From Sabellastarte sp. h YS-2021 (lineage: Eukaryota > Annelida > Polychaeta > Sabellida > Sabellidae), in assembly GCA_964017235.1 (NCBI GenBank), contig OZ024927.1:46195293-46259292 (forward strand): 64,000 nt of DNA. Reading direction: 5' to 3'. The notes beneath the pieces are model-generated. The model saw only the letters and a list, made by a program, of their open reading frames with translations, ran no database searches and was not told the DNA's origin. The position numbers and the translations under genes were made by a program. Shown one piece after another: positions 22,319-43,820 of this stretch (positions within the stretch are counted from its first letter, which is position 1; each line of letters starts with the position of its first letter).

Positions 22319-22539
22319 TAGTGATCGTGGACCAATTCACGCCCATGTACAAGTTCACGCCCACCCCTGAATTTATCCAAAACAATCACAGTTAAACAAT
22401 ATATTACAAATGTATATGATCAATTTGATTATTATCTATGATGTGGTAAACATCTTCTCTATGAAAAATTAGAAATCTTCAAGAAAATTGGGGGTGGGCC
22501 TGAATTGGTACCCAGGTGTGAATTGGTCCACCACCACTA
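22319..22539. mobile_element. 221-bp palindromic MITE, copy type 1
   Basis: Inverted arms of about 55 bp (22319-22373 and 22485-22539) with TA at both outer ends (TAGTG...CACTA). Each arm contains two short direct repeats: on the left caattcacgccca and aagttcacgccca. The arms match at most positions. Another right arm of this type (gaattggttcaccaccactag) stands alone at 23,091-23,112. Confidence 0.75.
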
Positions 22540-24522: not shown

Positions 24523-24528
24523 TTTATG
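24523..24528. repeat. target-site duplication TTTATG, left
   Basis: TTTATG immediately precedes the left end of the Polinton-like element and is repeated exactly after its right end at 31453-31458. Confidence 0.9.
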
Positions 24529-24707
24529 AGTAGTATAGGGGATACTATAGTCACACAATCTATATGGTCCCCGAAGGGGGCCATAAAGATTTTGTGACCA
24601 AAGAGCCAACAGAGTTCAAATCACGGACCATCTGTGTGAGGGGGGATATGGGGAGGGGAGGTGGGGGGTTTACTTAATGCAGGGGGTTGTTAATTATCTG
24701 TGAAAAT
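24529..24707 (+). repeat. left terminal inverted repeat, 179 bp
   Basis: I compared it base by base with the reverse complement of 31274-31452 and found no difference. It contains a GC-rich hairpin (ggtccccgaagggggcc, about 24565-24582) and a G-rich stretch (about 24639-24668). Polinton ends are thought to act as replication origins through a protein-primed polymerase; that role is inferred. Confidence 0.95.
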
Positions 24708-24739
24708 GAGGTTGAAATGGAATACATTTATTGGAATGA

Positions 24740-25240
24740 AGTACATAAAATATTCATAGCATCACCAACAAATAAACAACATTTAAAGCTACATTAAATA
24801 AAATCATGCAAACAGCTAAAGGTAAAATAAAACTAGCAAACAAGGACCTTTAAAAAACTAGTGAACAACTGGAATATTTAAGCATCTACATATTTATAGC
24901 AACAAATAAGGGACATTTTACAGCTATATACAGATCTATGATAACACTAAAGAAATGAAACACAAAGGACATACAAATTTGTAAGGTATAAGGACAAAAC
25001 ATGCAAACAACAAGGATTATTTAATCATCTACACATTCATAGCAACAAATAAGGGACATTTAAAACTACAAATTCATCATAAATATGAAACATCCAAAAT
25101 AGTTAAGACATTTAAACCCCTAAAAATTTGTAAGGACATTTAAAAACACGTAACTTGGAATTATTTAAGCATCTACAAATTCAAAGCAACAAGAAAATTA
25201 AAAATACACACACATGTAATAGTCAAGCTTTTTTCCCACA
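24740..25240. repeat. degenerate ~140-bp repeats inside the element
   Basis: The phrase 'atagcaacaaataagggacat' or decayed forms recurs at about 24,755, 24,895, 25,035 and 25,180, steps of about 140 bp. No coding potential; this fills the left end of the element. Confidence 0.65.
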
Positions 25241-25499
25241 ATTTTTTTCCTTTAAAAAGCCAGTTAAAGGGACCCAGTTTCACATTGGCACAGTAGCCTT
25301 TCATTAGACGTCACGTATAATTCAGACCCATCCCCTTTAATTTAAACCAACCCCCTGTACATTATTACCTTTATTTTAAAGTAATTACCTTATTTTAAAG
25401 TTTTTTTCAATGACTGTTATTTAATTATACTGGAATAAGTAAGAATCCCTCAAATATACCAAAGTCCCAAAAATTTAAATATCATATACTAGAGTCCAA

Positions 25500-26115
25500 T
25501 GGAAAGGCTATTATCCCCCACTGACAAAGCCATTCACACAGGTGGTGTCATTCATAATTAAAAAGGTCTTGTTAAGGAATTATAATGCATAATTTTCAAA
25601 TGCTCATAACTTTTTGAGGGATAGTCCGATTTTAAAAATTCAAAAAGGACCTCAATCCATATCTCCAGACAAAAATTTTGATACCTAATACTATAACCCC
25701 GAATAATAAATGCACAATATTTCGAAATCCAGCACATTAAAAAAAGTCCCATTATAAAAGGCTATTATCCCCCATTGTCAAAGCCATTCGCACAGCTGGT
25801 GTCATTCATCTTTAAAAAGGGGCTTGTTAAGGAATTATAATGTAGAATTTTCAAATACTCATAACTTTTTGAGGAATAGTCCGATTTTAAAAATTAAAAA
25901 AGCGTCTTAATCAGTGAGTCCAGACGAACGTGTTGATATGAAACACGCTCCTGTTAAACCATTGATAAAAATTTGAAAAAATATTCATTAATTATGTTAA
26001 GAGACACATAATTTGCATTTTTCAAATGGCCCCAACTCCGCGAGGGATAGTCGGATTTTAAAAATTCGAAAAGCATCTTAATCAGTGAGTCCCGGCGAAT
26101 GTTTTGATATCAAAC
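25500..26115. repeat. ~255-bp direct repeats inside the element
   Basis: ggctattatccccca starts at 25506 and 25760; the unit includes tttttgagg.atagtccgattttaaaaatt. A third, partial copy (26,010-26,110) keeps agggatagtcgg and ttttaaaaattc. Reading frames across it are short. I see no gene between 24,708 and 26,557. Confidence 0.75.
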
Positions 26116-26159
26116 TTAACCTTATATGAGAAATAACGGGAAATTTTAACTATACCAAA

Positions 26160-26535
26160 GCCTTCATTATGATATAACACAATGTGCGCACATTTAACGC
26201 ATGTGACCCTCACAATCCGCATATGTAACACATGTAACACAATGTGCACTGCACATGTAACACAATGTGCGCACATGTGACCCTCACAAACCGCACATGT
26301 AACACAATGTGCGCTGCACATGTAACACAATGTGCGCACAAGTAACACAGTGTGCACCGCACATGTAACAGAATGTGCACCGCACAAACCGCACATGTGA
26401 CACAATGTGCGCACATGTAACACATGTAACACAATGTGCACCGCACAAACCGCACGTGTAACACAATGTGCGCACATGTAACACATGTGACCCACACAAA
26501 CCGCACACGTAACACAATGTGCACTGCACATGAGG
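26160..26535. repeat. minisatellite of tgtaacacaatgtgcgcaca-type units
   Basis: About 370 bp of interlaced short units (cacaatgtgcgcac, gtaacacatgtaac, ccgcacatgt). All three minus-strand frames stay open (81, 104 and 153 residues, rich in Cys, His and Val), which is what a short stop-free repeat produces. I do not call a gene. It abuts the outer edge of the inner inverted repeat. Confidence 0.85.
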
Positions 26536-26557
26536 CTCATCAAACGTAATCCATCTC

Positions 26558-26942
26558 AGGGTTTCCTGGTCCCCCCTTCTTTTTGATAATCGGAAGGTAT
26601 TATTCGCTCAAAGACGAGGGTATCGCCTCGGGACCCCAACCGAGGCTCATTGTTGCCAGGATTCTACGACTTTACCGTCTTTTAAGACTCTCATGTTTAT
26701 TAGGTCGTTACCGAATCTGGGTTCCCCGTATTGTAAAGCCGCCATGGGGTACTCTGGTATTTGCGTAGTTCTTCTTGCTCGGCAGTTTTTTCCAAGTATT
26801 CGATCCTATAAGTATACTTTGCGATACTGGGGTTATTTCTTACATGCTCCATTATTTTGTTTTTATTTATTTAATTTTTAAAATATTTTATATTTTTTAT
26901 TCATTAAAAATTCGGATGTTCGATAAAATCGACGCAGGAACT
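26558..26942 (+). repeat. inner inverted repeat, left arm
   Basis: Matches the reverse complement of 29284-29663 over about 380 bp, at roughly 80-85% by eye, from cagggtttcctgg at the outer edge to ttatcgaaca/gtcgattt at the inner edge. The arms flank the ATPase and basic-protein genes, so this 3.1-kb inner block has the form of an element with its own terminal repeats nested in the outer one, or of an invertible segment. Confidence 0.88.
26650..26868 (-). pseudogene. broken copy of the 68-residue gene in the left arm
   Basis: On the minus strand it starts MEHVRNNPSIAKYTY, the same as the intact copy at 29376, then loses frame through small indels after about residue 22 and regains it at ATGGCGGCTTTACAATACGG. 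From there it shows the same end, with conservative changes (N to D, Q to K, I to V) and several silent ones, ending ESWQQ and a stop. The change pattern suggests selection on the protein before the copy broke. Confidence 0.75.
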
Positions 26943-26944
26943 GT

Positions 26945-27829
26945 CTAATTGTAAGGGGTCTTGTAACTTTCTACAGAGCTTTCATCCTGTGCATGCGGAT
27001 CGGATTCCCCATCCGTTTCATAGCTGTCATCCTGTGCATGCTGATCGGATTCCCCATCCGTTTCAGAGCTTTCTTCCTCTGTATGCGAATTGGATTCATC
27101 ATCTGTACTATCATCATCGTTTTCTTCTTCGCTGTCAATAAGTTCATCGAACAAAGATGAGTTTCGACGAAGAACTATTTTCAAAGCCTGGACGAATCTG
27201 TAATGTTTTTCATTCATTAAGGTCTGGATCTCTTCCATCACTTCCTGGTGTATCGTACTCCTTTTCAAATGATGCACAGTTGTCAAAATATCGGCATAAC
27301 TTTTCATAATACCCTTTCTATACTTCCAAAATAAGTCTTCTGTGGCCTTTTGTCTCGATTCTATTTCGGAATAACCCTCTTTCTCGTAGGATTCAACCTT
27401 TTCTGAGTATTGGTCATCGTACTTTCTATACACTCTTTGCACTATGTTATCCCATCCAGATTCATCGGGTTCATCTGTATTTTCATCGCACAGTCTTTTC
27501 ATAGGGGGCTCATCATTTTCGGGACACCCTCTTTTAACGTGTTTCTGTAGGTCCATTGTAGATGCAAAAATAATACCGCAATCGATGCAAGACCATTGGC
27601 TTTTATCCATTTTATATATATCTTCAACTCTCTTTTTCACACTGTTTCCCTGCTGACTGTCAGATGTTAAGTGATGCATCTTACGCTTTCCAACCCCTTT
27701 TATAATATTAGTCCTAAGCCTGTCTTCATCGGCTGTATCTTGTTTGAGGTTGACTAATAAATAGCCGTAGGGCTCCTTGGTAGCATAATGAAATGCATCT
27801 AAAAACGACTTAGAATTATTCGGGTACAT
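26945..27829 (-). CDS. ATPase C-terminal end fused to a C2HC zinc-finger, acidic-tail protein
   Basis: A 294-residue frame. Residues 1-42 (MYPNNSKSFLDAF...GYLLVNLK...RLRTNI) continue the packaging ATPase encoded just upstream in another frame, so the true gene start is at 28,620 and the Met here is internal. Residues 81-102 form a C-x2-C-x12-H-x4-C finger (CIDC...H..C). Residues 125-232 are a charged helical region, and residues 233-290 are very acidic with a tandem 15-residue repeat (ETDGESDQHAQDDSY-like, twice). The acidic tail could bind DNA-packaging proteins or histones; that is a guess. An AATAAA on the minus strand lies at 26896-26901. Whether the finger part was originally a separate gene is unclear. 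Confidence 0.72.
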   Translation of the reverse strand: MYPNNSKSFLDAFHYATKEPYGYLLVNLKQDTADEDRLRTNIIKGVGKRKMHHLTSDSQQGNSVKKRVEDIYKMDKSQWSCIDCGIIFASTMDLQKHVKRGCPENDEPPMKRLCDENTDEPDESGWDNIVQRVYRKYDDQYSEKVESYEKEGYSEIESRQKATEDLFWKYRKGIMKSYADILTTVHHLKRSTIHQEVMEEIQTLMNEKHYRFVQALKIVLRRNSSLFDELIDSEEENDDDSTDDESNSHTEEESSETDGESDQHAQDDSYETDGESDPHAQDESSVESYKTPYN

Positions 27830-28620
27830 CTGATTTCCAAATGCGCCACCTGTTGCTGGTCGCGCGGATTTTTAAAAAGTACAATATATTGCGTATTTAA
27901 GTTTATGGTTCTGTTTTCTTTGCCATGGTGGTACAAATTTTGTAGCAAGCAAATGACGCTCAAGTTACAATGGTGAGAGCCTTCGGTATACATTTCGCAT
28001 ACGTCTACATTTTTTGTGGTATCTTTCATAAGGTCATCGTAAATGTACAAGGTAGGCTGACCATCGGGAGTCCGCTGTTCGATACCCTGCACGAATTCTA
28101 TATGAGGAACAGTGTCTTGTAAATCAGTGTAAGCAGGCTGCCATCTTTTGTAAAACCATAAGATCTTTTCAGGAGGAGGTGTTATCATTGATTCAGCCTG
28201 TTGCAGTAAATGTTTCATCCAGGTTGTTTTTCCGCAAGAGGTCGGTCCTGCCAATAACATTGTAAATGGGTGCCTAAACACAAAGGCATTCTCCTGTTTT
28301 GACGATACTTTCAAACGCGGAAGATAAATTTGTCTCAATCCGTGTAATGCTTCGGATGATAAAAACTTTTCTTGCGGTGTCTCGGGTGTTACAATGGGCA
28401 CGTGTGTGACATCGGGTGCTATGTGTGCCACATTAGGGTTTATATTTGAGACGCGTGTAACATTTGGCATTGCGTGAGCAAGATCAGCCGACGATGGATT
28501 TACAATTCTTTTCTCATTCCAACCCGACATTGCACCCCTTTTGTGCTGTGTAAACATATGTCTCCTGAATGAATAAGGTGTAGCAAAACCCTTTGAGCAC
28601 TTTTCGCATGTTTTATTCAT
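27799..28620 (-). CDS. A32/FtsK-type genome-packaging ATPase, N-terminal part (frameshifted)
   Basis: 273 residues. Residues 5-26 are a classical C2H2 finger (C-x2-C-x12-H-x4-H). Residues about 95-262 are a P-loop ATPase: Walker A GPTSCGKTT (125-133), Walker B LYIYDDLM (191-198), then SHHCNLSVICLLQNLY (215-230) and FKNPRD (249-254), conserved in Polinton and virophage packaging ATPases. Such ATPases pump DNA into capsids. The frame is lost after residue about 261; one base appears missing near 27,833 and the domain continues in the 26945-27829 frame. The natural stop here follows about ten unrelated residues. TATA-like tataaa on the minus strand at 28677-28682, about 57 bp upstream of the start. 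A sequencing error is possible. Confidence 0.85.
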   Translation of the reverse strand: MNKTCEKCSKGFATPYSFRRHMFTQHKRGAMSGWNEKRIVNPSSADLAHAMPNVTRVSNINPNVAHIAPDVTHVPIVTPETPQEKFLSSEALHGLRQIYLPRLKVSSKQENAFVFRHPFTMLLAGPTSCGKTTWMKHLLQQAESMITPPPEKILWFYKRWQPAYTDLQDTVPHIEFVQGIEQRTPDGQPTLYIYDDLMKDTTKNVDVCEMYTEGSHHCNLSVICLLQNLYHHGKENRTINLNTQYIVLFKNPRDQQQVAHLEIRCTRIILSRF

Positions 28621-28974
28621 GGTGACTCTTCAGTGTCTAGGAATAAAACGTCTTCATCTAAATGTAACTGCCATCTTTTATAAATTTGCCCACTCGATGC
28701 ATAGGATTTTTAGTTAAATTTATTACCCAACAAACAATGTATTTGACCTAAATACCCGGATTTGTAAAAGGCCTAAGCCAAACCATAGCCTTAACTTTTG
28801 TACCTTAATGAAAGCAAGTGGCTAGGTGGCTCAAAAATATTTGAAAAGTTTATAAAAGACCGTAGAAACAAACAAATCCAAGGTGCGTAGTATAAGATTG
28901 AATATTCTCAATCAAAAACTTTAAACCTTACTAACTGAGCCATATAGAGTGTATCTTGTATCTAAGGAAAAAAT
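28621..28974. promoter_or_regulatory. divergent promoter region between ATPase and basic-protein genes
   Basis: 354 bp between two divergent genes. A minus-strand TATAAAAG-like box (28674-28683) points to the ATPase gene. A plus-strand TATAAAAG at 28851-28858 points to the 97-residue gene 117 bp downstream. No other motif is clear. Function inferred from position. Confidence 0.5.
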
Positions 28975-29268
28975 ATGTGGATACCAAAAGGATACCATCC
29001 GTTTAAATTAATCAGTCCCGTACAACAGCAAACTGAAATGGCTGAAATGTTGGTCAAAAGGAAGAGAGCCATAGATAAACAGGCTCAGAAAAAAGGAATA
29101 GGAAAACCGACGGAAAAAAAGAAGAAAAGTATAAGAAAAATGGTGAAGAAAAAGAAGACCGGTAATAACTATGTAACTAAAAAGTCCGGGAGTAAAAATA
29201 CATCAGTCAGGAGAGTTAAAAAGTCTACAAGAGGTCGAAGGATGGTGCGAACGGATATATTTTCGTGA
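28975..29268 (+). CDS. small lysine-rich nucleoprotein-like protein
   Basis: 97 residues. The first about 30 residues are hydrophobic to mixed (MWIPKGYHPFKLISP...), then a strongly basic body with runs such as KKKKS and KKKKT and a C-terminal RRVKKSTRGRRMVRTD. Small basic DNA-condensing proteins of this kind occur next to capsid and packaging genes in adenovirus-like and adintovirus genomes; similarity in composition is visible, homology is not proven. It is transcribed divergently from the ATPase and is 107 bp ahead of the 68-residue gene. If made in the cell it probably binds DNA in the nucleus. Confidence 0.6.
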   Translation: MWIPKGYHPFKLISPVQQQTEMAEMLVKRKRAIDKQAQKKGIGKPTEKKKKSIRKMVKKKKTGNNYVTKKSGSKNTSVRRVKKSTRGRRMVRTDIFS

Positions 29269-29283
29269 TGGAGTACAATAAGG

Positions 29284-29663
29284 CAGTTACTGCGTCGATT
29301 TTATCGAACATCCGAATTTTTAATGAATAAAAAATATTAAAAAAAATTAAAAATTAAATAAATAAAAACAAAATAATGGAGCATGTAAGAAATAACCCCA
29401 GTATCGCAAAGTATACGTATACAATAGAATACTTGGAAAAATTACCCAGCAAGAAGAAATATGCGGATGCCAAAGAGTGTGCGATGGCTGGATTACAGTA
29501 CGGTCAAGCCAGATTCGGTAACAACCTAATAAATGTGAGAGTGCTAAAAGATGGTCAAGTGATAGAATCCTGGCAACAATGAGTCTCGGTTGGGGTCCCG
29601 AGACGATACCCTTGTCTGCGAACAAATAATACCTTCCAAGGAAGGGGGGACCAGGAAACCCTG
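29284..29663 (-). repeat. inner inverted repeat, right arm
   Basis: Inverse of 26558-26942. It contains the intact 68-residue gene and the AT-rich leader before it. The 124-residue frame on the minus strand here (29347-29721) is the antisense of that gene and is not coding. The outer edge, ccaggaaaccctg, lies 74 bp from the stop of the next gene. Confidence 0.88.
29376..29582 (+). CDS. 68-residue protein of unknown function
   Basis: MEHVRNNPSIAKYTYTIEYL...NNLINVRVLKDGQVIESWQQ. Charged N-terminal half, then a beta-rich-looking end; no signal peptide, membrane segment or known motif. A diverged, broken copy in the left inner arm shows mainly silent and conservative changes, which supports this strand and frame as the coding one. 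It follows the lysine-rich gene in the same direction and converges with the gene at 29737. I do not recognise the family. Confidence 0.65.
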   Translation: MEHVRNNPSIAKYTYTIEYLEKLPSKKKYADAKECAMAGLQYGQARFGNNLINVRVLKDGQVIESWQQ

Positions 29664-29695
29664 GAAAAAAATTAATATTTACAGAGTACACATAT

Positions 29696-29701
29696 TTTAT
29701 T
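29696..29701 (-). terminator. poly(A) signal AATAAA
   Basis: TTTATT on the plus strand, so AATAAA on the minus strand, 36 bp past the stop codon of the CxxC-motif gene (29737). Confidence 0.6.
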
Positions 29702-29736
29702 GAACATTTCACATAAAACATAGAGAAATTGAAAGT

Positions 29737-30513
29737 TTATAGGGTCTCTCGGAACAGCAGTTTGTAGTCTTCGGGAATAGTCTCTAACACTGGTAGGGTA
29801 GTTTCCTCCAATGGCGCATATTCGACTTCTTGTAGTCCTAAAATCTTGAAAACTTTCTCGACGTTTTCTGCCACGTTACTTAAAGAGATCAAATGCAAGT
29901 AATTTTGTTCTACGTCTTCTTCTAAACAGCTATGGTCCCTCTGTCCCGGCATGTCGTATTGACAACCATAACAGTGCTCTCTGACTAGATCCGACGCTGC
30001 CTTTTGGGTCATATAGGCTCTAACGAGTCTGACGAGTTTCTGTTTGTCCGGGGCAGGAGCCTTTTTCTCGGTTATAGTGTAGGGCCACCCTTCCTGTTCG
30101 GCGTACTGCTTCAGAGACATCTTGGAGAAGAACGATTTAGGAGATCCGTGCTCAGCGCTGTAAAGGTACTTGGTTACGGTAGGTTCAGGAGGAATGTTTT
30201 CTTTATTCGCCGGTGAGAAAATCTCGAGGGCTTTCTCTTGAAACTCTTTCCATTGGATTTCATCCAAATTGTACAGATTATTCCTCTTAAAGCAGACGTA
30301 CATCTTGCCGTAAAAGGGAAGCGTCTCCAGGTTAGATTCTTTGGTAAGTTCGAACTTGAAATTTTGTTCATTCTTCAGAGCCTCGGTTATGCTATGGAAT
30401 TGATTTGAAAGCTTCTTCCAGACGTTACTGGAAAAGCAAATGTAACGGTTGTTTTTGCTGAGACGCACGAAAGTAGTCTCGTTGAACTTGCTCTTTTCTG
30501 CTGTCAATTCCAT
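29737..30513 (-). CDS. 258-residue protein with PC4-like N-terminus and CxxC motif
   Basis: I start at the ATG at 30513 (MELTAEKSKF) and not at an in-frame upstream Met (30693), because a minus-strand TATAAATA box at 30543-30550 lies about 30 bp before it and the upstream 60 residues look untranslated. Residues 10-95 show two short beta-rich stretches with aromatic-basic pattern (NNRYICFSS; GKMYVCFKRNN; LDEIQWKEF) faintly like PC4-type ssDNA-binding domains. Residues 181-196 carry CYGC...QRDHSC, a possible zinc site that I have the impression of seeing in uncharacterised invertebrate element proteins. Role unknown; ssDNA binding or replication support is a guess. Confidence 0.68.
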   Translation of the reverse strand: MELTAEKSKFNETTFVRLSKNNRYICFSSNVWKKLSNQFHSITEALKNEQNFKFELTKESNLETLPFYGKMYVCFKRNNLYNLDEIQWKEFQEKALEIFSPANKENIPPEPTVTKYLYSAEHGSPKSFFSKMSLKQYAEQEGWPYTITEKKAPAPDKQKLVRLVRAYMTQKAASDLVREHCYGCQYDMPGQRDHSCLEEDVEQNYLHLISLSNVAENVEKVFKILGLQEVEYAPLEETTLPVLETIPEDYKLLFRETL

Positions 30514-30542
30514 GTTTGCTGCCTGAATGCTACGTTGCGATA

Positions 30543-30550
30543 TATTTATA
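30543..30550 (-). promoter_or_regulatory. TATA box of the CxxC-motif gene
   Basis: Minus-strand TATAAATA about 30 bp upstream of the chosen start, implying a very short 5' UTR. It supports the shorter protein. Confidence 0.5.
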
Positions 30551-30749
30551 GAGATGCTCATCAATTTTATAATCGAATGCCTGCTTCTGATTGGTGTGAC
30601 GCTAAATCCAGCATTTTGACCATAATTCATGCAATTTGATTGGCGTGACAATAAGACAGGGTGCTTCGCTTGGTGGGACCATAATTGCTGCAATTTGATT
30701 GGTTGGAAGAAAAAATGTGCGTGTATGTGTTTCTATATTCTAGAATTTT

Positions 30750-31229
30750 TTAAAATAGTCCGTGTCCCTTTGTAGGACATAATCCATTGATGTCGGTGAA
30801 CTTGTTGGGAACTGTCATCAGAAGGTAATGGCATCCTTTACTGTGCTTCAGGTGCTCTTCGTAAGCGCTGTCTCTAGTTTCGAAAGAGTACAAAGTAATG
30901 CTATACCAGGGACAATGTACCTTGTCAGCATAGCCAGTATAAATAAATCCTGCATGCGCTAATTCTTTGGCAGTGATAGGCATGGCTTTTGGCCATGTAT
31001 TAAAGGTTGCCATTCTAGACGAATAAAGCAAATATTTAGTATGCTTCAACACAGAGAAACCTTCGAATACACCTTTCTCAACAGTGTCCTGATTCGTTGA
31101 CAATGCAAAGCCTCCTATTCTAGCGTTGCCAGTATGCTCCTTCGACATAGTCGGTCCATTTGTAGAACTGGTCCCGAATGAAAAGCCTCCGATTCTACCG
31201 TCTACTGCGTGATCTTGCTCCTTTGACAT
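30750..31229 (-). CDS. BIR (IAP-like) domain protein with an altered zinc site
   Basis: 159 residues. The N-terminal about 60 residues hold two related segments (MSKEQ...GRIGGFSFGT and MSKEHTGNARIGGFALST). Residues 72-136 are a BIR domain: R72, TFNTWP (75-80), ELAHAGFIYTG (89-99), D102, then C106, H126 and C133 in the exact C-x2-[C]-x16-H-x6-C spacing. The second zinc ligand, expected at 109, is Tyr. BIR proteins of the IAP family block caspases or bind other apoptosis factors. No RING or CARD follows, as in short viral and single-BIR proteins. A minus-strand ATATATAT lies about 40 bp upstream, at the edge of the terminal repeat. The changed ligand suggests loss of, or change in, zinc binding. 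Confidence 0.8.
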   Translation of the reverse strand: MSKEQDHAVDGRIGGFSFGTSSTNGPTMSKEHTGNARIGGFALSTNQDTVEKGVFEGFSVLKHTKYLLYSSRMATFNTWPKAMPITAKELAHAGFIYTGYADKVHCPWYSITLYSFETRDSAYEEHLKHSKGCHYLLMTVPNKFTDINGLCPTKGHGLF

Positions 31230-31273
31230 CTCGATGGTTTATGAAAGCGAAATCGGTTTACTACCCAATATAT

Positions 31274-31452
31274 ATTTTCACAGATAATTAACAACCCCCT
31301 GCATTAAGTAAACCCCCCACCTCCCCTCCCCATATCCCCCCTCACACAGATGGTCCGTGATTTGAACTCTGTTGGCTCTTTGGTCACAAAATCTTTATGG
31401 CCCCCTTCGGGGACCATATAGATTGTGTGACTATAGTATCCCCTATACTACT
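31274..31452 (-). repeat. right terminal inverted repeat, 179 bp
   Basis: Exact inverse of 24529-24707 as read. Homology stops sharply at attttca (31274). The promoter-like AT stretch of the BIR gene straddles its inner edge. Followed by the TTTATG duplication at 31453-31458. Confidence 0.95.
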
Positions 31453-31838
31453 TTTATGTATGCAATAAAAATAAGTATTGTGTTTGTGATGGTATTCAAA
31501 CATGCAAATAAAGGCCTGGTTTCATAATCAAGAAATGTTGGGACAGAGATCCTGAATTTAAGAACAGGATGAATAATTCACTATTGATTACTTAGTTGTA
31601 GAAAAGTGCTAAATGGTGAGAAAATTCAAATGCATCCCTACCCTTGACATTACAGTAGGAACTACACCCGTGTCTGGAAACCAATTTTTTAAACATATTA
31701 TTTTTAATTATTAATCTTTCTGATATATATGCATATAAATATGCAGTAACTTATACAATACATTGGCAACAGGAGCAAAAAAATAATGTTAACATAAAAC
31801 AAAACAGATTTTCTGTATACATAAGAACCTTGACCAAC

Positions 31839-31950
31839 TGTATGTACTGATTTCCTCTGCCCTTCCAACTACCCGTCGTGATATGACCTGTACAGTGTTG
31901 AAAGCGACGTAAAACCCCAAATAAATAAAAAAATAAAAACAAAGTATACA
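31839..31950 (+). mobile_element. SINE 3' part
   Basis: Matches the 3' half of the SINEs at 32,822 and 42,872 (ttgaccaactgtatgtactg; atatgacctgtacagtgttg; aaagcgacgt), ending in an ataaa-rich tail. The tRNA head is missing, so it is 5'-truncated. The 77- and 84-residue minus-strand frames here are spurious. Confidence 0.75.
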
Positions 31951-32059
31951 TAAGACGTTTGAAACAAAAACTATGGTCATGCAAAAATATGTTATGTCTA
32001 TTTTGTTTAAAACTTTTCTATGTTTACTCAATCTACAGCACATAGTTCAGAAGTACCAA

Positions 32060-32820
32060 TATAAAAATGTTATTTGATAATATAGAGAATTGTGAAAAAG
32101 AGTAAAATTTACACAAATACTTGAGGGCGAATTGAAGGTTTATAAAGTTACTTTACCTAACTGCCCAGTTTTTTTTTGAAAAAAAAAACATTTTTAATAT
32201 CTAACACTATATCGTAGGGTACACATAGGAGCAAATGTGATGCAGATTTATATTCACACAGGGCATGAAATAGGGGTGAATCTATAGATTGTAGTTTAAT
32301 GGGGAGGGTATTGGGAGGAGTGAGGGTGTACCTGTATTGGTTTATGGACATGACTGAGGGTTTGAAATTTGGGGTCACAGATCCTCTGATATGTATTGGT
32401 TTTATCAATGTTGTTACGGGTTTAAAAGTTATACATTGCAGAAATTGGGGGAGAGTATTTTTGAGAATTGCTTTTCCTCAGACAATGATTTGGAGCACCA
32501 TTGGGGGTTTATTTAACATTTTATTTTCCTTTTCTGTTTGTGTGTTACAAATGTATATTTATAATTATTCTTGTATAGTTTGTCCTAATTAAAAGCTCAA
32601 TCTATAGCACAGGCAGAGTGAGTTTCTCTGCATGTTTTCATTGAATTACCTGTCAGTTTTTTTTCCTTTTATTTCTTTAACCAAGTAATATCATAATTAT
32701 TGGTAAAAGAAAAGTTATGCATATAAAATTCTCATTATGCTTCAACAAAATAAACCAAATAAGTTTTTATTGAGAAAAAAAGCAAAACACATCCTTACTC
32801 ATTGAATTCCTGGTACAAAC
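32060..32820. other. no gene recognised
   Basis: AT-rich. Two opposing frames of 83 and 97 residues (32157-32408 minus, 32299-32592 plus) overlap; neither has splice-site support or domain-like content. Confidence 0.45.
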
Positions 32821-32821
32821 T

Positions 32822-33062
32822 GGCCATAGTGGCAGAGTGATAACTAACACTCTCGCCTCTCACCTCTGAGATTGGAATTTAAATCCCGTCCCGACCTCAA
32901 CTGGGAAAGTTGGTAGCTGCTTGCTGTTGGTCGGCAGTTAACAGTACTGAACCTTGACCAACTGTATGTACTAGTTTCCTCTGGCCATAAAACTACCGAT
33001 CATGATATGACCTATACAATGTGTTGAAAGCGACGTTAAAACCCAAATAAAGAATAAATAAA
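32822..33062 (+). mobile_element. tRNA-derived SINE, near full length
   Basis: Head: gtggcagagtgataactaac (A-box-like), then aatttaaatcccgtcc in B-box position. Body: ggtcggcagttaacagtactg and the conserved ttgaccaactgtatgtacta, ending 'gaaagcgacgttaaaaccc' with an aataaa-rich tail. The same family is inserted at 42,872-43,071 with a clear target duplication. Widespread in molluscs by my recollection; family name not assigned. Confidence 0.75.
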
Positions 33063-42253: not shown

Positions 42254-43820
42254 TGAGTTTAAATTTTTTTTAAACTTAACAATGAACCACAGGTTTTCAT
42301 ATTATCCCCTAGTTTGTTCCACAATTTGACACCATTAATTGACAAACAATTAGATTTAATTTTTGATTTAGAGAATTTAACTTTAAAGTTACAAAGCTGC
42401 CTAGTACAATGCTTATTTTCGCTATTACTTTTAAAAACACATTGCAAGTTTTCTGGTAGGTTAGTAAACAATGCTTTGTACATCAATACATTTATTTTGT
42501 ATTCCACTAAATCTGGAAACTTAAGTATTCTTAATTCTTTGAAAAATATACTTGTATGTTCTCTGTTTTTCAGATTAAAGATTAGTCTAATAGCCATTTT
42601 TTGTGCTTTAGTAATTGGTAATAGATACACTTGCAGTTCCCCCATAGTTCAGCACAGTAACTCAAATGTGAGTGAAAAATACTAGAATATAATCTAGACA
42701 AGGCTTCACTGTGTAACAATGGCTTAACTTTTTTGAGCACTGCAAAATTCATGTATAACTTATTTTTTACATTCTCAGTTTGTTCTTTCCAAGATAATCC
42801 CTAGGAATTTAGCCACATATACTCTTTCAATTTTACACTCATTGATGTAAACATTGCAGTTAGTGTTTAAGTTTAATTTTTAACTTATTTGGGGTTTTAC
42901 GTCGCTTTCAATACTGTACAGGTCATATCACGACGGGTAGTTGGAAGGGCTGAGGAAACCAGTACAAACGATCAAGGTTCTGTACTGTAAACTGCCGACC
43001 AACGGCAAGCAACTACTAGCTTTCCCACTTGAGGCCGTGCCGGGAACCGAACATCGGCCTCAGAGGTGGGATAGTGTTTAAGTGCTTCTCGCCAAAAACC
43101 ATAAAATTAGTTTTACTGATATTCAATGAAAGTTTGTTCATGGAGAACCAATTGTGGAACTTTAGTAGCTCCAACGACACCTGTTTACATAAATCTACTA
43201 TATTGTCAGCCGTACAGAATATGTTAGTATATATCATCTGCAAATATGATCAAGTCTATTACATTGGAAATATTACATATATCATTAATATACAGAATAA
43301 ATAGTTTAGGGCCCAAGATTGAGCCTTGCGGTACTCCGCAAACAACCTCTTGTAGTTCTGAATTTACACCATTAAAATGAACAAACTGCTTACAATTAGC
43401 TAAATATGACCTTATACAATTACTGGCTATACCTCTCACTCCATAATGAGTTAGTTTCTTTATTAACAGTAAATGATCTATGGTATCAAAGGCTTTTTTT
43501 AAGTCAATAAAAACACCTAAAGTAATAGGTTTATTGTCTATTGCACGCCCTTGTTTTTCCATAAAGTCTAAAAGAGCCAGGGATGTTGATCTTGTAGTTC
43601 TAAAACCATACTGAGAATTATTCATAATGTTATTTTTTTCTACAAACTCTGTTAATCTTTTATCAAAGAACTTTTCAAGTACTTTAGAGAATTGAGCTAA
43701 AAGAGAAACTGGTCTATAATTGGAGAATATTGAATCCTCACCAGATTTAAATAGAGGAACAATCATAGCTATTTTCATTTTGTCAAGGAAGATTCCACTA
43801 CTAAAGGATAAGTTACAAAA
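42254..43820 (-). pseudogene. 5'-truncated Jockey/CR1-type LINE, interrupted by a SINE
   Basis: Minus strand from about 43,820: NLSFSSGIFLDKMKIAMIVP, YRPVSLLAQFSKVLEKF, SQYGFRTTRSTSLALLDF, GVFIDLKKAFDTIDH, VPQGSILGPKLFILYINDI and FADDIY, the ordered RT motifs; then LNISKTNFMVFGEKH. A SINE interrupts at 43,071-42,872, after which NVYINECKIERVYVAKFLGI follows, and finally a C-terminal frame (42259-42645) with QKMAIRLIFNLKNREHT and NGVKLWNKLG. The endonuclease is absent and frameshifts split the rest. The order is typical of Jockey/CR1 superfamily ORF2. Confidence 0.88.
42872..43071 (-). mobile_element. SINE inserted in the LINE, with 11-bp duplication
   Basis: Flanked by tagtgtttaag at 42861-42871 and 43072-43082; removing one copy and the insert restores the LINE frame. 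On the minus strand it has cctctgaggccgatgttcggttccc (the GTTCGGTTCCC B-box) and the shared tail of the SINEs at 31.8 and 32.8 kb. The A-box half is missing. Confidence 0.88.

Follow-up and report, generated by a model that had tools for sequence, protein, structure and literature searches.

A damaged, recombinant copy of a small Polinton-related element that is probably a satellite mobilised in trans by a 22.7-kb Polinton

Analysis of the window, the 64,000-nucleotide stretch of annelid DNA under study, confirmed a real element of 6924 bp at 24529-31452, and an earlier note on this DNA had given these coordinates exactly. The termini read AGTAGTATAGG...CCTATACTACT, and the 179-bp identical inverted repeats, the AG...CT ends and the 6-bp duplication TTTATG described in that note were all verified; 6-bp target-site duplications are typical of Polintons. 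The note had missed the tandem repeats of the arm, as well as an inverted repeat of ~395 bp (85% alike), with arms at 26557-26953 and 29274-29663, that encloses the genes for the ATPase and the lysine-rich protein. In the following feature list, "helper" denotes the 22.7-kb Polinton family described further below.

24523-24528, strand not applicable: left copy of the 6-bp target-site duplication, TTTATG, in flank sequence
24529-24707, plus: left terminal inverted repeat, AG terminus, 179 nt, 100% complementary to the right arm
24547-25146, plus: non-coding arm that matches L048:501-1102, at the left end of the 22.7-kb Polinton, with 96% identity
26175-26545, plus: tandem repeats of the arm, CACATGTAACA-type
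26557-26953, minus: degenerate inverted left copy of the p68 region, partner of 29274-29663
26945-28620, minus: extended gene for a putative packaging ATPase, with a C2H2 finger, an A32-type ATPase, a second C2H2 finger and an acidic tail
28621-28974, strand not applicable: divergent promoter region with one TATA box for the ATPase at 28677-28682 (minus) and one for the lysine-rich gene at 28851-28856 (plus)
28975-29268, plus: lysine-rich protein, 97 aa, homologous to the 122-aa lysine-rich protein of the 22.7-kb element
29322-31360, strand not applicable: segment acquired by recombination from the helper right end, 96.7% identical over 2049 aligned bases to L050:4033-6070
29376-29582, plus: p68, a 68-aa uncharacterised protein whose 5' part contains the satellite/helper crossover (29399-29417)
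29583-29606, plus: conserved hairpin 3' of p68, in which helper and satellite differ by a compensatory T-A / C-G change
29737-30630, minus: p297, a 297-aa uncharacterised protein, helper gene
30750-31229, minus: BIR protein, 159 aa, helper gene (PF00653, E 3e-17)
31274-31452, minus: right terminal inverted repeat, CT terminus, 179 nt, 100% complementary to the left arm
31453-31458, strand not applicable: right copy of the 6-bp target-site duplication, TTTATG, in flank sequence

The window copy is damaged, as its ATPase frame is shifted near 27830 and split into two ORFs (27799-28620 and 26945-27829). A 294-aa ORF was rejected as a separate protein, because intact copies have a single frame, mostly of 561 aa, which identifies it as the C-terminal half of the ATPase split off by the frameshift. 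The window ATPase matched PF04665 at 30.8 bits (cut-off 22.8), and its putative role in packaging is taken from the ATPase family. Comparison of the ATPase profile with solved structures returned mainly zinc fingers among the best 60 of 85 matches, together with weak P-loop matches such as ABC transporters (E of 0.006 or higher).

The packaging ATPase, lysine-rich and BIR genes named earlier were found again, and polymerase, integrase and capsid genes were again not found. Tblastn of the window (E up to 0.001) gave no match to any of its queries, which were the capsid homologue, integrase, TBP-like protein and pieces of the polymerase from large elements, together with the integrase of a second Polinton lineage (lineage 2). 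Pfam searches of the six main ORFs of the element detected no major capsid protein, primase-helicase or cysteine protease, and no cysteine protease was recognised in the scanned ORFs of the large element either. The BIR protein of the window is missing one zinc-site cysteine that is present in the large element; zinc binding by this protein is presumed from the BIR family. The TATA boxes reported earlier were located upstream of both genes and lie at near-equal distances in 13 of 13 small copies examined, and the part of the promoter region from ~28862 onward has its match in the 22.7-kb element, at the 3' end of one gene. It is doubtful that p68 is a necessary protein, as its frame is broken in the young palindromic copies examined (L041, L057 and L059), although the hairpin behind it is retained.

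A search of the host genome for other copies found many that share the two-gene core and conserve its frames. At least 40 ATPase matches in the genome are at least 96% identical (hereafter young), so the suggestion that the window copy might be a one-off deletion was not borne out. An open frame of at least 540 aa is present in 32 of these 40, and the divergent lysine-rich gene adjoins 39. In the other eight, including the window copy, no open ATPase frame reaches 540 aa, so mobilisation in trans without a working ATPase also happens or has happened, which counts against the reading adopted below. Small copies measured 5.5-7.7 kb, and the commonest form among those examined is near-palindromic, with only the ATPase and lysine-rich genes at its centre and long, inverted arms. 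Every small copy for which both ends were fetched carries the 6-bp duplication (12 of 12; 11 perfect, and L043 with 5 of 6 bases). In none of 13 small loci (the window and 12 others) did tblastn find a match to the capsid, polymerase, integrase or TBP queries, and the matches listed include no helper integrase, helper ATPase, pPolB or lineage-2 integrase at 25 kb or less from any of the 40 young ATPases. The architecture is common to subfamilies whose synonymous divergence reaches ~0.25 among the printed pairs; near ATPase subfamilies at ~85% and ~75%, neither the lysine-rich gene nor an integrase was listed.

The matches were filtered before counting. For the satellite ATPase, 133 of 164 matches were used in one count and 101 in another, after second pieces and short or weak matches were dropped, and the lysine-rich gene was counted at 76 places from 208 matches after helper-type matches were dropped. 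The counts for p297, helper integrase and helper ATPase used 96 of 134, 62 of 151 and 46 of 145 matches, respectively. The polymerase count used part of 125 matches, and the 25-kb tests were repeated with all 125 polymerase and 143 of 145 helper-ATPase matches, which added one helper ATPase match of 98%.

The earlier note had also proposed a search for full-length Polintons with the same ends, and such elements coexist with the small ones in the genome. Two 22.7-kb Polintons are bounded by the same ends as the window element, both with a 6-bp duplication, and many copies of this young family have open integrase, ATPase and p297 frames. The family has genes for an RVE integrase and a capsid homologue, and some of its copies also encode pPolB. 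The gene for the 122-aa lysine-rich protein immediately precedes the capsid-gene homologue. The probable capsid assignment is based on gene order and on homology to F54H12.2-like proteins, which we take to be Polinton capsid proteins; identities to Mercenaria and Ruditapes are 34-39%, and the named relatives are mostly bivalves. A Pfam search of the capsid homologue gave no match, and comparison of its profile with solved structures found nothing.

The shared ends raised the possibility that the small element is an ordinary internal-deletion derivative in decay, the alternative already named in the earlier note. The arms are also common to the 22.7-kb element, 12 of 13 small copies retain a helper-gene remnant ahead of the lysine-rich gene, and the ATPase of the window copy is broken, all of which are consistent with deletion. 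However, we rejected a simple internal deletion of the large element, because that element contains no DNA counterpart of the ATPase module. The ATPase is foreign to it, being of the extended type and 40% identical to the ATPase of the 22.7-kb Polinton. The frames kept in most young copies and the architecture kept across subfamilies also argue against decay, and we regard this explanation as scarcely credible.

The small-element ATPase falls inside the extended clade, apart from the helper ATPase. Its integrase-linked relatives belong to lineage 2, which is older and mostly broken in this genome; this source lineage was examined in L060, and the ATPase was seen at 14 of 15 places with a lineage-2 integrase. 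The satellite ATPase had no match in viral contigs. The ATPase thus derives from lineage 2, where it adjoins the integrase, and the ends and lysine-rich gene derive from the 22.7-kb lineage.

Sequence comparison shows that the window copy is itself a satellite/helper recombinant, in which p297, BIR and one end came from the large element. Recombination with the helper is recurrent, with two breakpoints on one arm, and one copy has p297 on the opposite side of the ATPase, as judged by coordinates only. BIR and p297 were rejected as core satellite genes, since p297 adjoins just 9 of the 40 young ATPase copies (BIR is present too in those examined) and was acquired from the large element through recombination. 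The earlier proposal of a satellite is therefore retained in part: the many two-gene copies with conserved frames, the Polintons with the same ends and the foreign ATPase favour it, but the kept set that it described, for packaging, condensation and host control, did not hold up, given the rarity of p297 and BIR and the frameshifted ATPase of the window copy.

The two genes of the core both evolve under purifying selection, with median dN/dS of 0.29 for the ATPase (all compared copies being small elements) and 0.36 for the lysine-rich gene. Between satellite subfamilies, dN/dS was 0.25 for the ATPase core and 0.15 for the second finger and helical part, and the motor core compared with lineage 2 gave 0.06. 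Selection on the ATPase shows that it has some function, not packaging specifically. The small element could instead be a non-autonomous transposon that is moved by the helper polymerase and integrase and never packaged, its ATPase being kept for another use, such as regulation by its zinc fingers or inhibition of the helper. The helper family has the polymerase and integrase genes for this, the ATPase carries two C2H2 fingers and an acidic tail beyond the motor, and young copies with a broken ATPase exist. Yet the motor core itself is selected, both among satellites and against lineage 2, the Walker residues are invariant in an alignment of 46, and the second kept gene encodes a basic protein whose helper counterpart precedes the capsid-gene homologue. 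We consider an unpackaged transposon unlikely, but it is the alternative to which we give most weight.

Another arrangement would be a virus with a divided genome, in which polymerase-less large, complete large and 7-kb elements complement each other and the last is the small segment. In favour of this, 29 of 47 young large-element ATPase matches (at least 98% identity; 46 before a recount) have no pPolB match within 8 kb, the integrase is present at 45 of 46 tested, and one element at C7:102.0 Mb, examined end to end in pieces, has no pPolB match. But the large elements have their own ATPase, so that the small element supplies nothing they visibly lack, and there are copies in which the pPolB, ATPase, integrase and p297 frames are all open, such as that at C5:84.90-84.91 Mb. 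We therefore find a divided genome very improbable.

Taken together, the window probably holds a recombinant, damaged copy of a Polinton satellite that is mobilised in trans by the 22.7-kb Polinton. Mobilisation in trans by the large Polinton is well supported; that the satellite enters helper capsids by means of its own motor is inferred. In the proposed course, the protein-primed polymerase of an active helper would copy the satellite from the shared ends, the ATPase and basic protein of the satellite would compact its DNA and feed this into the capsids of the helper, and insertion would be carried out by the helper integrase. Exchange with helper DNA within the p68 stretch sometimes replaces one arm by the p297-BIR end, as in the window copy. 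A broader reading, which we offer as possible rather than probable, is that the packaging motor of a mostly broken Polinton lineage has been set between the ends of a young lineage and loads the 7-kb element into the capsids of that young lineage; integrated DNA viruses of animals would thus have satellites, and together with the polymerase-less large copies there would be three levels of dependence in one genome.

Polintons are thought to be viral because of their kept capsid and packaging genes, and their particles have been hard to show. If the small element is a satellite, its kept packaging motor and basic protein would be independent evidence for the packaging of Polinton DNA, as there are few other reasons to retain a motor. 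The satellite-helper arms race of phages and giant viruses would also extend to integrated animal viruses, and the family offers a testable case of motor swapping between Polinton lineages. PICIs, which are phage satellites, redirect packaging and bring their own packaging factor.

No comparable element was found in the papers searched, and the closest known systems each share part of its organisation. Like Polintons/Mavericks (polintoviruses, adintoviruses), the window element has inverted ends, AG termini, a 6-bp duplication and an A32-type ATPase, but Polintons are 15-20 kb long, whereas the small element measures 5.5-7.7 kb, no polymerase, integrase or capsid gene was found in it, and its ATPase is of a different lineage from the one carried by the Polinton that shares its ends. 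In Krupovic et al. 2014 (PMC4028283), nine of the Polintons without the MCP also lack the protease and ATPase; these are likewise partial-gene derivatives, but the ATPase lost in those nine is kept in the small element. Virophages such as mavirus are also Polinton-related dependants of a larger DNA virus, and of the set they share according to PMC3671162 (MCP, minor capsid protein, protease, ATPase and primase-helicase), the small element has just the ATPase. The satellites Mulch and Flayer, phages of Streptomyces described in PMC10690885, encode their own encapsidation machinery without key replication genes; they likewise keep encapsidation functions, whereas the small element keeps no capsid gene. 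PICIs and the minimal satellites PICMI, the latter described in PMC10803314, are likewise integrated, small, free of capsid genes and dependent on another virus, whereas the small element has a eukaryotic host, a Polinton helper and a motor ATPase in place of a small terminase.

The element in the window is bounded as follows.

24529-31452: putative satellite element of 6,924 bp, with 179-bp terminal inverted repeats, AG...CT termini and target duplication TTTATG

The ends described in the earlier note were borne out: the two 179-bp repeats are 100% complementary, without a mismatch, between AG...CT termini and the 6-bp duplication. The genes found were an A32-type ATPase, a lysine-rich protein, a 68-aa protein (p68), a 297-aa uncharacterised protein (p297) and a BIR protein. 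The ATPase, lysine-rich and BIR genes claimed previously were present, and an ORF of 294 aa turned out to be the C-terminal half of the ATPase, whose frame is shifted near 27830. A separate 294-aa protein was ruled out, as the ATPase is a single frame in intact copies, most commonly of 561 aa, running from a C2H2 finger through the ATPase and a second C2H2-like finger to an acidic tail. The window BIR copy lacks one cysteine of the zinc site. Being recombinant, frameshifted in the ATPase and short of that BIR cysteine, this copy is probably inactive; intact copies lie elsewhere in the genome. Short repeats outside the element (31824-33062, 42875-43039 and 22352-22539) recur in loci fetched around other copies and are probably unrelated host repeats.

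Used as a genome query, the 179-bp end returned 46 matches (40 of 371 candidates scored); since only scored candidates were counted, copy numbers are minimum values. The search for other copies that had been proposed thus found many, and pairing ends bound both small elements and two Polintons of 22.7 kb, the putative helper. Thirteen small loci were read (the window, L039-L047, L056, L057 and L059). The 6-bp duplication was perfect in 11 of the 12 small copies with both ends fetched and agreed at 5 of 6 bases in the remaining one, the duplications of L046, L057 and L059 being taken from flanking sequence by reading. Both 22.7-kb elements had perfect 6-bp duplications and the AGTAGTA terminus of the small copies.

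A genome search with the ATPase (164 matches; 1903 candidates, 141 scored) returned at least 40 rows with ≥96% identity to the ATPase of the window copy. A stop-free frame of at least 540 aa occurred in 32 of these 40 young rows (exactly 561 aa in 22), and the divergent lysine-rich gene lay within 2.5 kb of 39. Among the matches listed, no helper integrase, helper ATPase or protein-primed polymerase B lay within 25 kb of the 40. Integrase rows accompanied extended ATPases only below 85% identity (0/40, 0/23, 4/33, 5/26 and 3/11 by falling identity class). Comparing gene content across copies, as had been suggested, revealed a two-gene core of ATPase and lysine-rich protein with conserved frames. 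The divergent promoter, with two TATA boxes at near-constant distance, was present in all 13 copies, which are relatives of one another.

Median pairwise dN/dS, from pairs with dS >0.02 that are non-independent and include broken copies, which raises the ratio, was 0.29 for the ATPase (74 pairs, small copies only). With large-element copies included, it was 0.36 for the lysine-rich gene (85 pairs), 0.23 for p68 (329 pairs, both arms), 0.32 for p297 (14 pairs) and 0.31 for BIR (12 pairs). Between young and old satellites, ATPase values by region were 0.25 in the core, 0.15 in the second finger and helical part, 0.44 in the acidic tail, 0.56 in the linker and 0.54 in the first finger; the core gave 0.06 between satellite and lineage 2, a second, older Polinton lineage. 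Since the ATPase copies compared were from small elements only, these ratios indicate that selection acted on the satellite form.

The helper is young and abundant, with at least 47 ATPase rows at ≥98% identity. Of 46 such rows tested, 45 had an integrase within 3 kb and all 46 had p297 within 10 kb. Many helper integrase frames were of 367 aa, and 13 polymerase rows at ≥92% had frames of 1,097-1,123 aa, stop-free across the matched part. Among the matches listed, a polymerase row lay within 8 kb of 18 of the 47 young (≥98%) ATPases and was absent from 29; at ≥94% identity, again among matches listed, the count was 28 of 64. By tblastn, no polymerase was found in the C7:102.0 Mb element, whose sequence was assembled from three pieces for reading. 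Because a polymerase row lies near only 18 of 47 and none in the C7:102.0 Mb copy, helper copies with a polymerase evidently coexist with copies needing one from elsewhere. Tandem repeats fill part of the polymerase-lacking stretch of the C7:102.0 Mb element, which at 22.7 kb is as long as a copy whose polymerase is broken (L051-L053). A further gene of the large element specifies a TATA-binding-protein-like protein (L050:3519-4010, in a piece of the C7:102.0 Mb copy; PF00352, E 2e-20), which could, speculatively, tie satellite transcription to the helper. By eye, a frame resembling it lies at L053:3675-4022.

The small loci took two forms. Nine of 13 (L041-L044, L046, L047, L056, L057 and L059) were near-palindromic, with a longest inverted stretch of 0.8-2.7 kb. 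In L059 the arms were 95.7% identical over 2,398 bp around a unique centre of ~2.3 kb holding only the ATPase and lysine-rich gene; in L056 the lysine-rich gene was not seen. In the other four (the window, L039, L040 and L045), the right end of the 22.7-kb element, carrying p297 and BIR, stood in place of one arm. The window's replaced segment was 96.7% identical to L050 over 2,049 aligned bases, with a crossover between 29399 and 29417, satellite-type letters before and helper-type after. L039 shared this breakpoint, L040 was helper-type already from the p68 start, and at C5:143815228 p297 lay on the opposite side of the ATPase, judged from coordinates only. Given these differing breakpoints and the opposite-side p297, satellite and helper have recombined on two or more occasions, probably on no fewer than three, and this repetition suggests that their DNAs meet in one cell. 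Genome-wide, p297 lay within 4 kb of only 9 of the 40 young satellite ATPases; the earlier proposal that BIR, which accompanies p297 in the copies read, was kept for host control did not stand, as it was gained from the helper.

Just 3' of p68, a 7-bp hairpin (29583-29606) recurs at 24 sites in 15 loci, with a compensatory T-A/C-G change between helper and satellite. The hairpin persists in copies with a disrupted p68 frame, is lost at 1 of 24 sites (L042), and might serve as a signal for processing or packaging. Two inverted lysine-rich genes 0.9 kb apart (C6:89033964 and C6:89034837), with no ATPase among the matches listed, are perhaps a still smaller derivative.

The two core genes have different origins. 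The satellite and large-element ATPases are 40% identical, and no DNA match to the former was found in the large element. A tree of 114 cores placed the two large-element ATPases apart on a long branch and the satellite within the remainder, of which most are extended ATPases (second-finger motif in 80 rows, absent from 31); as its rows were collected by the satellite query, the tree is not very informative about relatives of the large-element ATPase. A search with the large-element ATPase gave 282 matches, of which the 120 listed were 157-295 aa, the search admitting only 0.55-1.75x query length, so that much longer relatives could not appear. Extended ATPases are present in Pinctada, Mytilus and Pecten, and one predicted Pinctada protein (P0039) fuses an integrase to one. 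Mostly bivalves, too, supplied the named relatives of the Polinton proteins of this genome. L060, a lineage-2 locus, has the same order, an integrase with one in-frame stop followed by an ATPase with disrupted frames that is 78% (protein) and 79.5% (DNA) identical to the satellite's over the main stretch. Its integrase matched 15 places at 66-100% identity, other rows listed being ≤50%. At 14 of the 15, an extended ATPase with 53-83% identity to the satellite's lay within 3 kb, and a stop codon interrupted the listed integrase or ATPase row at 10, L060 being likewise broken. No lineage-2 integrase lay within 25 kb of any of the 63 satellite ATPase rows (≥85%) among the matches listed. The integrase-linked extended ATPases lie in this older, mostly broken lineage, which was thus the source of the satellite ATPase. 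The lysine-rich gene can be traced to the helper lineage: in the helper it follows another gene, and what is left of that gene lies upstream of the satellite's lysine-rich gene in 12 of 13 small loci.

Within the satellite arms, the CACATGTAACA repeats (window 26175-26545) resemble L060:1152-1416, a repeat-coding sequence close to where the lineage-2 ATPase starts (~67-71% in longer BLAST matches). Two further ATPase subfamilies were seen (C8:104466283, C7:117624669, C6:13070164, C3:105444144 and others), an 85% family with several 603-aa frames and a 73-77% family, their longest open frames reaching 603 and 784 aa. Neither had a lysine-rich gene or integrase nearby among the matches listed; they may be further satellites or a missing autonomous source.

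On sequence grounds, satellite and helper have in common their ends and duplication length, and the satellite has retained a motor and a basic protein under selection; no replication, integration or capsid genes were found in it. The helper polymerase would copy satellite DNA from the common ends and the helper integrase would insert it. The lysine-rich protein would condense this DNA, and the satellite's own motor would load it into helper capsids.

No published satellite or non-autonomous derivative of a Polinton/Maverick was found by titles and abstract starts, with subscription literature mostly outside the scope. Krupovic et al. 2014 (PMC4028283) describe the Polinton gene set and nine elements without the capsid gene that also lack protease and ATPase; the satellite is the reverse, with the ATPase kept. 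Polinton-like viruses have been described as dependants of giant viruses (PMC12945077). Virophages keep their own capsid, protease and helicase genes (PMC3671162), whereas no capsid or replication gene was found in the satellite. Among the phage systems considered, its nearest analogues appear to be PICMIs and Mulch/Flayer.
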